This document shows positions 43,799-48,707 of a stretch of DNA of 64,000 nucleotides, in pieces. A model generated the notes under the pieces. That model had not been told where the DNA came from, ran no database searches, and saw only the letters and a list, made by a program, of their open reading frames with translations. The translations under genes were made by a program, and so were the position numbers. Location: NCBI RefSeq assembly GCF_016735695.1, contig NZ_JAERQD010000033.1, forward strand, positions 1 through 64,000, given 5' to 3'. Position 1 is the first letter of the stretch; the number at the start of each line of letters is the position of its first letter. The stretch is from Microvirga zambiensis WSM3693. Its GTDB lineage: Bacteria > Pseudomonadota > Alphaproteobacteria > Rhizobiales > Beijerinckiaceae.

Positions 43799-44299
43799 CG
43801 TCACACGAGGCACAGCGGTGATGACGCACAGGTCAGCTGGGACGCGACGACGTCGGCGATCTCGGCTCGCGAGCGACTCACTCGCACGTGATTCTCGACT
43901 CGTCCGATGGTTCGCAGCCCGCTTCGAGGGCCTGAGAGACAAAAATTTTTCGACTCGGCGAGAAGAGATTTTTGGAGGCGCGAAAACCGCTTTTCGCCCT
44001 CTCCAAGTGGATAGGATTCACGCTGCGATGTTGAACGAGCTTGAAGACGTTCGAATACTCACAAGGACGTAAACGTCATCTTTACGAACACCCTAAGTCA
44101 TTAAAAGATAAGTCGTTTTCTGAACATCCATTACAGCGGTTCATCACATGCACCGAGTGAGATGCGCCTGCGAGGGTGACTCTAACTGCCTCATCTTGAA
44201 CCCGATCTCGCGACTCAGACCTGCAAGCGAAGAGCGTCGTTGCGCTTGAAATATCCACAGAAAAAGTGAGCGATCTACTGTCTACACTTTCCGATAATC
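43799..44299. other. Long intergenic region upstream of the histone-like gene
   Basis: About 500 bases. The left half is GC-rich with a doubtful rightward open frame (43782-44072) rich in Arg and overlapping the EamA start. From about 44050 the DNA becomes visibly more AT-rich (cattaaaagataagtcg) with no gene. The EcfG promoter begins at its right end. I see no other feature. Confidence 0.5.
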
Positions 44300-44324
44300 G
44301 GAACCCCCTTGGTATAACGACGTT
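44300..44324 (+). promoter_or_regulatory. EcfG (general stress) promoter of the histone H1-like gene
   Basis: GGAAC (44300-44304), 16 bases, CGTT (44321-44324), a perfect match to the alphaproteobacterial EcfG consensus GGAAC-N16/17-CGTT. Transcription should start around 44331, about 43 bases before the ATG. Confidence 0.85.
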
Positions 44325-44373
44325 GCCTTGCAAGCGTGACGGTTGCACGCGAAGGCCCTTGAAGGAGGCGGCA

Positions 44374-44991
44374 ATGCCGACAGACACCAAGAACCCGCTG
44401 ACGATGCTGTTCACGGGTGACACAGGTGCGACCAGCACCAAGAAGACCGCGAAGAAGAGCAGCGCACGCCGCTCGTCGACCGCGAAGAAGAGCACCGCCA
44501 AGAAGGCGACTGCCAAGAAGGCCGGAACGAAGACCGCAGCGAAGTCGACCTCGCGGTCGGCTGCGAAGAAGAGCACCGCCAAGAAGACCGCTGCCAAGAA
44601 GACCACGGCGAGGAAGACCACTGCCAAGAAGACGGCAGCCAAGAAAACCACCGCCAAATCGGCAGCGAAGAAGACCACTGCCCGCAAGACGGCAGCCAAG
44701 AAGACCACCGCCCGGAAGACCGCTGCCAAGAAGACGACGGCTCGCTCGGCCGTCAAGAAGTCCTCGGCACGGAAGGCTCCGGCGCGTTCCGCTGCGTCCC
44801 GCTCTTCCGCAAAGAAGACGGCTTCGCGCAGCACCAGCCGCGGCGCGGTGAAGAAGGCCTCCGCCTCCAAGGCTCGCACCACGAAGCGCGCCGCGGCCGC
44901 TTCGAGCCGGACCTCGGCGACGAAGAAGTCGGGCAAGGTCGCCAAGCGGTCTTCGAAGAGCGCTCGCAAGAGCCCTGCGAAGAAGCGCTAG
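44374..44991 (+). CDS. Histone H1-like Lys/Ala-rich DNA-binding protein
   Basis: 205 aa from the ATG at 44374 (GGAGGCGGCA before it). After a short N-terminal segment (MPTDTKNPLTMLFTGDTGAT) the chain is almost wholly Lys, Ala, Thr, Ser and Arg in degenerate repeats such as STAKKATAKKAG, TAAKKTTARKTTAKK and TARSAVKK. It resembles the C-terminal tail of eukaryotic H1 and bacterial AlgP/Hc1-type proteins, which bind and condense DNA. It is preceded by an EcfG promoter, which suggests nucleoid compaction during stress or stationary phase. The repeats are length-unstable in related genes. Confidence 0.85.
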   Translation: MPTDTKNPLTMLFTGDTGATSTKKTAKKSSARRSSTAKKSTAKKATAKKAGTKTAAKSTSRSAAKKSTAKKTAAKKTTARKTTAKKTAAKKTTAKSAAKKTTARKTAAKKTTARKTAAKKTTARSAVKKSSARKAPARSAASRSSAKKTASRSTSRGAVKKASASKARTTKRAAAASSRTSATKKSGKVAKRSSKSARKSPAKKR

Positions 44992-45048
44992 GACCGCCAT
45001 GCCGCAGGCGCCGGGAAGGAGCGATCCTTCATCGGCGCATGCGCATAA

Positions 45049-45078
45049 AAAATCGCCCGGCGAAAGCCGGGCGATTTT
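45049..45078 (+). terminator. Terminator of the histone-like gene
   Basis: AAAATCGCCCGGC-gaaa-GCCGGGCGATTTT, a 13-bp perfect stem with tetraloop followed by GCTTTTT. It is symmetric, so it may also act on leftward transcripts. Confidence 0.93.
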
Positions 45079-45101
45079 GCTTTTTGAGGGGTGAGAGCCT
45101 G

Positions 45102-45194
45102 GAGCTGTTTCCACTTGCGTGGAATCACCTCTCTGCCTTGCTTTGCCGCATTTTTTGACGGCGAACCGGATCCACTTCGCCGAAAAATGCTCTA
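45102..45194. repeat. Family F repeat, copy 2 (inverted)
   Basis: ggagctgtttccacttgcgt through ttttgacggcgaaccggatc to aaaaatgctctag. Almost the exact reverse complement of 33085-33178. It overlaps the last bases of the PRC-barrel gene (stop at 45192-45194). This is the last recognised copy of any repeat family in the window. Confidence 0.85.
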
Positions 45195-45602
45195 GCGGCC
45201 CGTGCTCATCGGGTCGCTGTCGCCCCAGTAGGGCGTGGCGTTGTAGTAGCGGTGGACGTGCTCCTCCCACTCCCGGTCATAGGATGCATCATGCCCTTCG
45301 GCGCTTCGGCGGGGGGCACCCCGCAGCTGATCCTCGGACAGGTTCAGCTCGTAGGCATCCAGCTCCACATTGTACTTCAGGACTCCCCAGGGCAGCGTGT
45401 AGTACTCTTCGCCGAGCCCCATGAAGCCACCGAAGCTCATGACCGCATAGGCGACCTTGCCGGACCGCTTCTCGATCATCACGCGCTCGATGGTGCCGAT
45501 CTTCTCGCCGTCGGAGCGGCGCACCGGTGTCCCTTCGACCTTGTCGCTGGCGATCAGGCTGTGGGTTTCGCGAAGATCACCGCTTTGAGCCGTCGTCTGC
45601 AT
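45192..45602 (-). CDS. PRC-barrel domain protein
   Basis: 136 aa. The PRC-barrel spans about residues 18-95 (GTPVRRSDGEKIGTIERVMI, GKVAYAVMSFGGFMGLGEEY, YTLPWGVLKYNVELDAYELN). The C-terminal tail is charged (EWEEHVHRYYNATPYWGD). PRC-barrel proteins of this soluble type are abundant under stress in Hyphomicrobiales; their role is unknown. A perfect EcfG promoter lies before the gene at 45637-45662. The stop overlaps repeat F, so the C-terminus (STGR) is probably shaped by the repeat. Confidence 0.88.
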   Translation of the reverse strand: MQTTAQSGDLRETHSLIASDKVEGTPVRRSDGEKIGTIERVMIEKRSGKVAYAVMSFGGFMGLGEEYYTLPWGVLKYNVELDAYELNLSEDQLRGAPRRSAEGHDASYDREWEEHVHRYYNATPYWGDSDPMSTGR

Positions 45603-45636
45603 TGTCTCGCTCCTTCCTCTGTCAGGATCCTACAGC

Positions 45637-45662
45637 AACGCATGTGCGGAAAAGGCGGTTCC
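45637..45662 (-). promoter_or_regulatory. EcfG (general stress) promoter of the PRC-barrel gene
   Basis: On the leftward strand GGAAC (45662-45658), 17 bases, CGTT (45640-45637), a perfect EcfG consensus match. The ATG is 34 bases beyond the -10, which leaves a leader of about 25 bases with AAGGAGCGAG as ribosome site. Confidence 0.85.
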
Positions 45663-45719
45663 TTGACCGCGGCACCAGGGATTTCCAGGCTTTCCGGCAT
45701 CCCGCCAAGCGCTGCCATA

Positions 45720-45745
45720 GGAACCCCCTTCAGGACCCTCACGTT
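45720..45745 (+). promoter_or_regulatory. EcfG (general stress) promoter of the SDR gene
   Basis: GGAAC (45720-45724), 17 bases, CGTT (45742-45745). Back to back with the PRC-barrel promoter, so one small region drives two genes in opposite directions under the same sigma factor. Confidence 0.85.
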
Positions 45746-45789
45746 GATCCACGTTTCGTGAAGCCCTGAGGAACGGGAAGGAGAATGCC

Positions 45790-46959
45790 ATGGCTTTTCG
45801 CCAGAAGCCGGTCGAGGAACAGGTGATCGTCATCACCGGCGCATCCAGCGGGATCGGCCTTGCGACGGCGCATGCGTTCCGTGCGCGAAGAGCCAGGGGC
45901 CTGGTTCTCGTCGCCCGCAACGAAGAGGCTTTGCGCAGCATCGCCGATGAGCTCAGCGGCGGCCGCACCTATGCGATCGCGGTGGCCGCGGATGTCAGCC
46001 GGCACGAGGATCTGGAAAGGGTGGCCAACATGGCCATCGACACCTTCGGCGGCTTCGACACCTGGGTGAACGACGCGGCTGTGGCTCTCTATGGCAGCGT
46101 CGCGGAGATCCCGATGAAGGATCAGCGGCAGCTCTTCGACATCAACTACTGGGGCGTCGTCGACGGCTCGATGATCGCAGCGGATCATCTGCGCCATAAC
46201 GGCGGCACCATCGTCAATGTCGGCAGCGTGCTGTCCGAGCGCGCCATGATCCTGCAGACCCAATACTCGGCTTCCAAGCATGCGGTGAAGGCCTTCACCG
46301 ACGGGCTGCGCATGGAACTCGAGAGCCAGGGCGCTCCGGTTTCCGTCACGCTCATCAAGCCATCCTCCATCGACACGCCTTACGTCGAGCATGCCCGCAA
46401 CTATCTCGACCGGGAAACGGCCGTTCCGCCACCGGCCTACGATCCGCATCTCGTCGCGAAGGCCATCGTCTTCGCGGCGGAGCACCGGCGCCGGGAGATC
46501 ACGATCGGCTTCGGCGGCTGGGTGATCGGCGCGATGGGCAAGGTCGCGCCCCGCCTCGTGGACAAGGCCATGGAATGGACGGGCCATGGCTCGCAGACGA
46601 CGGACCACCCCGAGCGCCCGGCCATGCGCGACAATCTCTATCAAGCGCGTGAGGACGGCGACATCTATTCGTCCCTGCCCGGCGAGCCGCGCAAGACCAG
46701 CCTGCTGCTCGAAGCGCAGCTCCATCCCTTCCTGTCCGCTGCAATCCTGGCAGGCATCGCGGCCGGAGTCGCGGCGTTGTTTGTCACTCCTTGGATGGTA
46801 GGCGCTCGCCGTCCGCGCAGAGAAGTCAGGCGGCGGCCGATTTCGCGCTACCAGCACACCATAAGGCGCAGCGGCAACGGGCATGACAAGCACACCTTCG
46901 GACCAGGGCATGTGAGCCAGCGCGTCGCAAGCGAAGGCCGTTCACAACCGAGGCATTGA
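45790..46959 (+). CDS. SDR-family oxidoreductase with C-terminal membrane helix
   Basis: 389 aa. The dehydrogenase domain covers about residues 8-260: VIVITGASSGIGLATAHAFR (cofactor), WVNDAAVALYG in the NAG position, catalytic Ser in NVGSVLSERAM and YSASKHAVKAF as Tyr-Lys. A hydrophobic helix near 315-340 (LSAAILAGIAAGVAALFV) could anchor it, followed by a basic Arg-rich tail. The EcfG promoter at 45720 places it in the general stress regulon. Substrate unknown. Its size and anchor set it apart from the 259-aa SDR at 38177. Confidence 0.88.
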   Translation: MAFRQKPVEEQVIVITGASSGIGLATAHAFRARRARGLVLVARNEEALRSIADELSGGRTYAIAVAADVSRHEDLERVANMAIDTFGGFDTWVNDAAVALYGSVAEIPMKDQRQLFDINYWGVVDGSMIAADHLRHNGGTIVNVGSVLSERAMILQTQYSASKHAVKAFTDGLRMELESQGAPVSVTLIKPSSIDTPYVEHARNYLDRETAVPPPAYDPHLVAKAIVFAAEHRRREITIGFGGWVIGAMGKVAPRLVDKAMEWTGHGSQTTDHPERPAMRDNLYQAREDGDIYSSLPGEPRKTSLLLEAQLHPFLSAAILAGIAAGVAALFVTPWMVGARRPRREVRRRPISRYQHTIRRSGNGHDKHTFGPGHVSQRVASEGRSQPRH

Positions 46960-47063: not shown

Positions 47064-47975
47064 ATGAACACGATTCGCTGCCTTGCCATCACTCTTGCTC
47101 TCCTTGCCGGCGGGACGGCCTCCGCCCAGGACAAGGGCACGCTCGATCCGAAGCCCCTGCCGCCTCTCGCCAATCCGGGCGATCCGAAATTGGCGGCGAA
47201 GGAATTGTTCGGGCGACGTGCCACACCGGCCGATCTGAGCTCGCGCTCGATCGGTGGCTATGCCCGCGGCTGTGTCGCAGGTGCGGCGGCAATCCCGATC
47301 GATGGCGAGAACTGGCAGGTGATGCGCCTGTCCCGCAACCGTAATTGGGGCCATCCGCGGATGATCGACTTCCTGCAGCGTTTCGCGACGCGGCTGCCCG
47401 CAGTGAACGGCTGGCCCGGCCTTCTCGTCGGCGATATCTCGCAGCCGCGCGGCGGGCCGATGATCACGGGCCATGCCTCGCACCAGATCGGGCTCGATGC
47501 CGACATCTGGCTCACCCCGATGCCCGATCGCCGGCTCTCACGTGCCGAGCGGGAGGAGATGTCCGCCACCAATGTGGTGCGTAGCGACTGGCTCGACATC
47601 GATCCCTCCCGTTGGACGCCGCAGCACACGGCCCTGATCCGCGCCGTGGCGTCGGAACGCGGCGTTGCCCGCATCTTCGTGAACCCGGCGATCAAGAAGG
47701 CGCTCTGCCGGGAAGCCGGAGCAGACCGGGGATGGCTCACCAAGGTGAGGCCGACCTGGGGCCACAATTACCACTTCCATATCCGCCTCGCCTGCCCCGC
47801 CGGCGAGGCCGGCTGCTCCGATCAGGATCCGCCTCCGAACGGCGATGGCTGCGGCCCGGAGCTGGCAGCATGGTTCACGCCGGAGATGCTGCATCCGAAG
47901 CCCGGAAAGCCCCGCCCGCCCCTGACGATGGCCCAGCTGCCCACCGAGTGCCGCCGGGTTCTCGATGCGCCCTGA
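47064..47975 (+). CDS. mepA: Penicillin-insensitive murein endopeptidase
   Basis: Periplasmic metallo-endopeptidase cutting D-Ala-mDAP cross-links in peptidoglycan. 303 aa with a signal peptide (MNTIRCLAITLALLAGGTAS). The LAS-family zinc motifs are GHASHQIGLDADIW (H-x6-D) and WGHNYHFHIRLACP (H-x-H). Cysteines (ARGCVAG, CREAG, LACPAGEAGC, GDGCGPEL, TECRR) likely form disulfides. Full length. The stop is followed by a bidirectional terminator. Confidence 0.95.
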   Translation: MNTIRCLAITLALLAGGTASAQDKGTLDPKPLPPLANPGDPKLAAKELFGRRATPADLSSRSIGGYARGCVAGAAAIPIDGENWQVMRLSRNRNWGHPRMIDFLQRFATRLPAVNGWPGLLVGDISQPRGGPMITGHASHQIGLDADIWLTPMPDRRLSRAEREEMSATNVVRSDWLDIDPSRWTPQHTALIRAVASERGVARIFVNPAIKKALCREAGADRGWLTKVRPTWGHNYHFHIRLACPAGEAGCSDQDPPPNGDGCGPELAAWFTPEMLHPKPGKPRPPLTMAQLPTECRRVLDAP

Positions 47976-48047: not shown

Positions 48048-48707
48048 CTATTCGGCAGCGACCCCGACGCCGATCTGGCACGACACGCCGGTGCCACCCA
48101 GACCGCAATAGCCGTTCGGGTTCTTCGCCAGATATTGCTGGTGATAGTCCTCGGCGAAGTAGAACGGGCCGGCATCGCGGATTTCGGTCGTGACCGGTCC
48201 GTAGCCCTTTGCGGCAAGCGCCTGGCCATAGGCCGCCTTCGACGCCTCGGCCGCCTGCCGCTGCGCCTCGTCGAACACGTAGATGCCGGAGCGGTATTGC
48301 GTGCCGGTATCGTTGCCCTGGCGCATGCCCTGGGTCGGGTCGTGGTTCTCCCAGAACGTCTTCAGCAGCGTCTCATAGGAGATCTTCTTCGGGTCGAAGA
48401 CGACCAGCACCACCTCGTTGTGGCCCGTCAGGCCCGAGCAGACCTCCTCGTAGGTCGGGTTCGGCGTCGTCCCGGCGGCATAGCCCGCGGCCGTGACCCA
48501 GATGCCGTCGCCCAGCTGCCAGAACTTGCGCTCGGCACCCCAGAAGCAGCCGAGGCCGAAGACGGCCTTCTCCATGCCCTCCGGATAGGGCGGCAGGATC
48601 GGATTGCCATTGATGAAGTGCCGCTCGGCGGTGGGGATGGGGCTCGACCGGCCCGGCAGAGCCTCGGCGGCACTGGGCAGGTCCAATCGTTTGCGGAAGT
48701 TGAACAT
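48048..48707 (-). CDS. msrA: Peptide-methionine (S)-S-oxide reductase MsrA
   Basis: Repairs oxidised methionine in proteins using thioredoxin. 219 aa. The catalytic Cys is in [13 protein letters not shown] (about C53), and the resolving cysteines near the C-terminus are in [36 protein letters not shown] and [14 protein letters not shown] are invariant. Cytoplasmic, no signal peptide. Confidence 0.97.

Follow-up and report, generated by a model that had tools for sequence, protein, structure and literature searches.

Conserved EcfG-type promoter motifs at three neighbouring genes of Microvirga

The switch formed by PhyR, NepR and the sigma factor EcfG is well established, and the EcfG/RpoE2/SigT regulon of alphaproteobacteria is the closest described system for the three neighbouring Microvirga genes presented here. 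The Microvirga genome shares with that regulon its GGAAC-N16/17-CGTT promoters near start codons and a PhyR-NepR-EcfG locus that carries motifs of its own. It differs in that three such promoters occur within 1.45 kb, one of them at a gene for a histone H1-like protein, and in that this locus is known from sequence alone.

Genes of two of the families concerned, PRC-barrel proteins and short-chain dehydrogenase/reductase (SDR) proteins, appear in the sections of published accounts considered here. In Sphingomonas melonis, PRC-barrel gene #1478 is placed under EcfG and printed with a GGAAC motif (PMC6599016). In Sinorhizobium meliloti, SMb20522 (PRC-barrel) and SMa0187 (SDR) are listed under both RpoE2 and RpoE6; the former is printed with a GGAAC motif, and the printed sequence of the latter lacks GGAAC (PMC6180224). 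PRC-barrel genes of Mesorhizobium loti are listed as heat-induced (PMC3989490), and the consensus given for Methylobacterium extorquens is GAAC-N16,17-C/GGTT (PMC4814048). The likeness of the Sphingomonas and Sinorhizobium genes to those of Microvirga is one of family, PRC-barrel or SDR; the divergent pairing of the two genes in Microvirga does not feature in the sections of those accounts considered here. Because PRC-barrel and SDR genes are already EcfG/RpoE2 targets elsewhere, the Microvirga trio for the most part adds a further example to a known regulon. For an H1-like gene in an EcfG regulon we found no report in the open-licence literature, which is weak evidence of absence. The closest described counterpart of its product is the chlamydial histone homologue Hc2 (HctB), which is likewise lysine/alanine-rich, repetitive and basic. 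The Microvirga protein differs from Hc2 in scoring under the curated cut-offs, in having a conserved N-terminus of its own (MPTDTKNPLTMLFTGDTGATS in the window) and in the stress-type promoter of its gene.

We consider it highly likely, judging from the comparisons below, that the three genes are members of the Microvirga general stress regulon governed by PhyR, NepR and the sigma factor EcfG. Under stress, phosphorylated PhyR would capture NepR, and an EcfG-type sigma factor would thereby be freed to direct RNA polymerase to the three GGAAC-N16/17-CGTT promoters; the H1-like protein, the PRC-barrel protein and the SDR oxidoreductase would then be made together. Three poorly characterised proteins are placed in this regulon with strong comparative support.

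The three genes and their products

The window, meaning the whole 64 kb stretch of DNA that was analysed, comes from contig C184; the assembly totals 7.36 Mb in 257 contigs. The earlier note had placed exact motifs at 44300, 45637 (leftward) and 45720, and a pattern search of the window confirmed all three. The H1-like gene has its motif at 44300..44324 on the forward strand with a spacer of 16, the PRC-barrel gene at 45637..45662 on the reverse strand with a spacer of 17, and the SDR gene at 45720..45745 on the forward strand, again with a spacer of 17. The distance from the end of the motif to the ATG is 49 nt for the H1-like gene (ATG at 44374), 34 nt for the PRC-barrel gene (45602) and 44 nt for the SDR gene (45790). 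The PRC-barrel and SDR promoters do stand back to back, in an intergenic gap that was given as about 190 bases and measures 187 bp (45603-45789).

The H1-like gene (44374..44991, forward strand) encodes a lysine/alanine-rich protein of 205 aa. The role in DNA compaction ascribed to it earlier is suggested by this composition but not by profile searches, in which the curated cut-off of HC2 (PF07382) is not reached (37.5 vs 40 bits) and two further profiles also score below theirs (41.4 vs 135 and 37.1 vs 80 bits). On composition, this lysine-rich product probably binds DNA. The PRC-barrel gene (45192..45602, reverse strand) encodes 136 aa that match PF05239 at 53.7 bits, over a cut-off of 21.2. 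The SDR gene (45790..46959, forward strand) encodes an SDR family oxidoreductase of PRK07109 type with 389 aa, which exceeds the cut-offs of PF00106 (140 vs 26.6 bits) and NF005495 (353 vs 264 bits). Its translation contains TGASSGIG and YSASK, which conform to the TGxxxGIG and YxxxK patterns of the family, and a C-terminal hydrophobic segment is apparent by eye. The predicted roles would be nucleoid protection and a redox or detoxifying activity that may be located at the membrane.

An apparent intrinsic terminator, recognised by eye as an inverted repeat (GCCCGGCGAAAGCCGGGC) with a T run, lies between the H1-like and PRC-barrel genes at 45040-45085 of the window. Genes for a murein endopeptidase (Peptidase_M74; 47064-47975) and MsrA (48048-48707) adjoin the locus, both lacking an exact motif.

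Conservation, genomic position and regulators

The three promoter motifs are the only exact matches to GGAAC-N16/17-CGTT in the window. Shuffled versions of the window gave an expectation of 0.78 matches, and three or more occurred in 5 of 100 shuffles, so the count by itself is only marginal and position and conservation must decide. The same holds for the genome as a whole, where 145 exact matches compare with 122 for the reversed pattern; such totals are near background, and the number of exact motifs was therefore not accepted as proof. Both of these counts favour the alternative that the motifs are chance matches and that transcription starts from ordinary promoters.

The position of the matches speaks against chance. 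Promoter position was defined as lying outside genes with a start no more than 250 nt downstream, an overlap of up to 30 nt with a called start being allowed, and 101 distinct matches of the 145 were examined using a simple codon-based gene caller of our own. Fifty-three of these 101 were in promoter position, as compared with 18 of 303 matches to 36 permuted motifs in the same sequences, the latter being kept without de-duplication; since the stretches had been selected for having the motif, only these fractions are comparable and not the totals. The remaining matches were inside genes (23/101) or in neither class (25/101), and 236 of the 303 permuted-motif matches were inside genes. Twenty of the 53 proteins downstream of promoter-position motifs were scanned, of which 17 match Pfam and three match nothing; the matches include Ku, two DUF892 proteins, a HisKA_2/HWE-type kinase and four response regulators.

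Conservation within the genus argues in the same direction. A search with the SDR protein retrieved 37 loci, comprising 33 from Microvirga and four distant ones in other phyla. Thirty-two of the Microvirga loci are complete, with 69-83% identity; the 33rd record (L063), a fragment, begins within the SDR gene and does not enter the counts. Across the complete loci the exact motif is present at the H1-like gene in 32/32, at the PRC-barrel gene in 32/32 and at the SDR gene in 31/32, the sole exception (L061) having GGACC for GGAAC with CGTT kept. The sequence around the PRC-barrel and SDR motifs has diverged, with mean pairwise identities in Microvirga of 0.68 and 0.59 in the spacers and of 0.44 and 0.55 in the leaders, respectively; the figure of 0.44 is rough, because the end of the PRC leader was set at the first ATG found 15-60 nt past the motif. 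We count retention of both motif elements amid diverged spacers and leaders as support for EcfG promoters and against chance. The rows of this identity comparison had been picked by motif, which makes a motif count among them circular, and the counts used are those from the SDR-fetched loci and from a second set fetched by a different part of the cluster, the conserved block at the H1-like gene.

In this second set of 17 Microvirga loci the H1 site is present by selection, and some genomes overlap the SDR-fetched set, so that not all are independent. The PRC-barrel gene has the exact motif in all 17, a further point against chance. The SDR gene has it in 13 of 17, including one locus (L265) whose SDR keeps the motif though only 35% identical to that of the window, as though another SDR gene had taken its place; in the other four (L266, L272, L275 and L276) the SDR is absent beside the H1-like and PRC-barrel genes. 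In genome G070 an endopeptidase gene directly follows the PRC-barrel gene. Taken with the positional enrichment, these results make chance matching very improbable, and it is very probable that all three sites are genuine promoters of EcfG type. The "small stress cluster" of the earlier note stands in so far as the motifs are conserved at all three genes, but it is not a fixed unit: the SDR gene with its motif occurs in 13/17 loci only, and two other genera have the PRC-SDR pair without this H1-like gene.

The genome encodes the PhyR, NepR and EcfG-type sigma factor that an EcfG regulon requires. Genes for PhyR (PF22233, PF22029), NepR (PF18557) and an ECF sigma factor lie side by side on contig C202, with phyR divergent from nepR-ecfG and motifs back to back between phyR and nepR. 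We infer that the three genes of the window depend on EcfG. A point against this reading is that at least four EcfG-like sigma genes are present among the proteins scanned. Also to be set against it are the exact matches inside genes, the Microvirga loci without the SDR gene, the mismatch in the SDR -35 element of L061, and the PRC-barrel and SDR homologues described below that lack the motif. NepR-like matches in the genome number 11, of which eight exceed the cut-off and one has an internal stop (loci L068-L075 and L135). The reading of the three sites as EcfG stress promoters is thus upheld by conservation, genome-wide position and the PhyR-NepR-EcfG locus, but such control of PRC-barrel and SDR genes was already known elsewhere.

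The phyR-nepR-ecfG locus on C202 (L135:6088-11394) is bordered by a further PRC-barrel gene and a further SDR gene; both have an EcfG motif upstream, and they echo the PRC-SDR pair of the window.

The control region of the H1-like gene

The control region of the H1-like gene is, unexpectedly, conserved beyond the needs of EcfG recognition, a feature that the earlier note had overlooked, and it is the part of the locus most worth following. It was compared across 84 source loci, with one site each and none failing, which gave 47 distinct sequences. None of these departs from GGAAC or CGTT. In the spacer, either C or G occurs at three earlier positions, and a single change is seen in the last 12 (TTGGTATAACGA). 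Within the spacer, TGGTATAAC (44310-44318) is unchanged in 46/47 sequences. Conservation extends to an upstream element at 44252..44299 on the forward strand (TATCCACAGAAAAAGTG ... TCTACACTTTCC ...), whose ten-column conservation means are 0.89-0.93 in the 47 sequences, as compared with 0.50-0.74 further upstream; in 33 genomes the 50 nt upstream of the promoter have an identity of 0.88. This element includes the invariant TATCCACAG, which may resemble a DnaA box. Downstream, the leader (44325..44373, forward strand, including the Shine-Dalgarno sequence) is 49 nt long in 33/33 genomes and has a mean pairwise identity of 0.98, against the 0.44 and 0.55 of the PRC-barrel and SDR leaders.

The constraint continues into the coding sequence. 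At conserved residues, the same codon is kept in 0.90 of genomes near the start of the H1-like gene (19 codons), vs 0.70 in the SDR gene (79 codons) and 0.76 in the PRC-barrel gene (84 codons), a difference with a Mann-Whitney p of 1.5e-5. This comparison used 33 H1, 33 SDR and 32 PRC rows, one PRC row having failed the search words. The block as a whole is present in 47 of 48 Microvirga genomes, the one miss (G227) being an assembly of 780 contigs that is 92% complete. Among 199 genomes of the family it matched 10, all of the same genus, and at the sensitivity of that search none outside it.

The near-invariant spacer, leader and first codons suggest either a nested second promoter or another regulator. 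Because part of the spacer, the leader and the upstream element are over-conserved for an EcfG promoter, a second layer of control on the H1-like gene is probable.

The extended -10 promoter motif of housekeeping type is TGnTATAAC. Such a promoter, nested within the EcfG spacer, could provide basal transcription, with the EcfG promoter adding induction under stress, and it would explain the near-invariance of the last 12 spacer positions. The single change in TGGTATAAC among the 47 sequences falls on the position that the extended -10 motif leaves free, and the composite of EcfG motif and TGGTATAAC occurs once in the genome. Of 30 examined occurrences of TGNTATAAY (54 in the genome), 11 are in promoter position, vs 1 of 17 for seven control words at the same loci. 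The word is not enriched genome-wide, however (54 vs 88 for the reversed control), and 6 of the 30 examined occurrences are inside genes. Inspection by eye revealed no good -35 partner, one change in 47 sequences is a thin basis, and a nested promoter would not account for how strictly the leader and first codons are conserved. On balance we regard nested promoters as rather unlikely.

Another reading is that a further regulator binds this control region, or that it includes a post-transcriptional site for a small RNA or RNA-binding protein over the leader and first codons. The leader identity of 0.98, the codon retention near the H1 start and the conserved upstream element, which lies outside the expected EcfG transcript, support this reading. 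Against it stand the occurrence of the block as a single full copy in the genome, the lack of excess RNA fold stability in the leader (z from -0.9 to 0.7) and an Rfam search whose five matches, with E up to 1, all fall far below the gathering scores, none of them in the leader. We regard a further regulator or post-transcriptional site as quite possible, if somewhat short of likely.

Beside the EcfG promoter, which we retain as the main reading of this site, the conserved parts could also form one composite element, specific to the genus and about 190 bp long, consisting of an AT-rich upstream site, a housekeeping extended -10 promoter nested in that EcfG promoter, and a constrained leader running into the first codons. 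We put this forward as a speculative and distinctly unlikely arrangement; if true, it would couple nucleoid compaction to growth state as well as to general stress.

Several other accounts of the block were rejected. A repeated element was dismissed, since the 23 further matches in the genome (E <= 10) are all short, with E from about 0.05 upwards. A structured RNA leader, with the hairpin GCCTT..GCGTG..CACGC..AAGGC drawn by eye, was discarded on the fold z values and the sub-threshold Rfam families, and the predicted fold differs between variants, with L085 breaking a pair. A possible upstream open reading frame of 8 codons (GTG..TGA) within the leader has no visible ribosome-binding site, and its start codon is changed in 1 of 47 sequences. 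Nor can the H1-like protein start further upstream and read through the leader, given the 2-nt insertions in L277 and L085.

PRC-barrel and SDR homologues outside Microvirga

Many members of the order have the stress motif at their PRC-barrel genes of this type. A PRC match was found in 92 of 199 genomes of the order, and the best loci of 29 other genomes in the order were inspected. GGAAC-N16/17-[CG]GTT is present upstream of 19 of these 29 homologues, in 17 of them with CGTT; 10 are without it, and on the opposite strand the motif was found at 6 of 29. Permuted patterns gave a mean of 0.14 over 348 patterns, with a highest count of 8, which we think comes from a pattern that overlaps the real motif by a one-base shift.

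SDR homologues from the family outside Microvirga numbered 17, of which seven have the exact motif upstream, or eight if [CG]GTT is allowed, leaving nine without. The divergent PRC-SDR pair with an exact motif on both sides was found for three of the 17 (L139, L140 and L141), in which the SDR is 66, 61 and 59% identical to that of the window. The genomes concerned represent two genera, G036 and G074 belonging to one and G077 to another.

The surroundings of these homologues vary. In L139, the slot beside the PRC-SDR pair is occupied by a different gene (L139:123-869), the product of which matched nothing in a Pfam scan and has a basic lysine/serine-rich tail; this gene has an EcfG motif of its own. 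In L141 an endopeptidase gene (Peptidase_M74) again lies 3' of the SDR gene. In one further genus (L142:1522-3949 and L144:1492-3961), the homologue of the window's SDR gene directly precedes the Ku and LigD genes of end joining.
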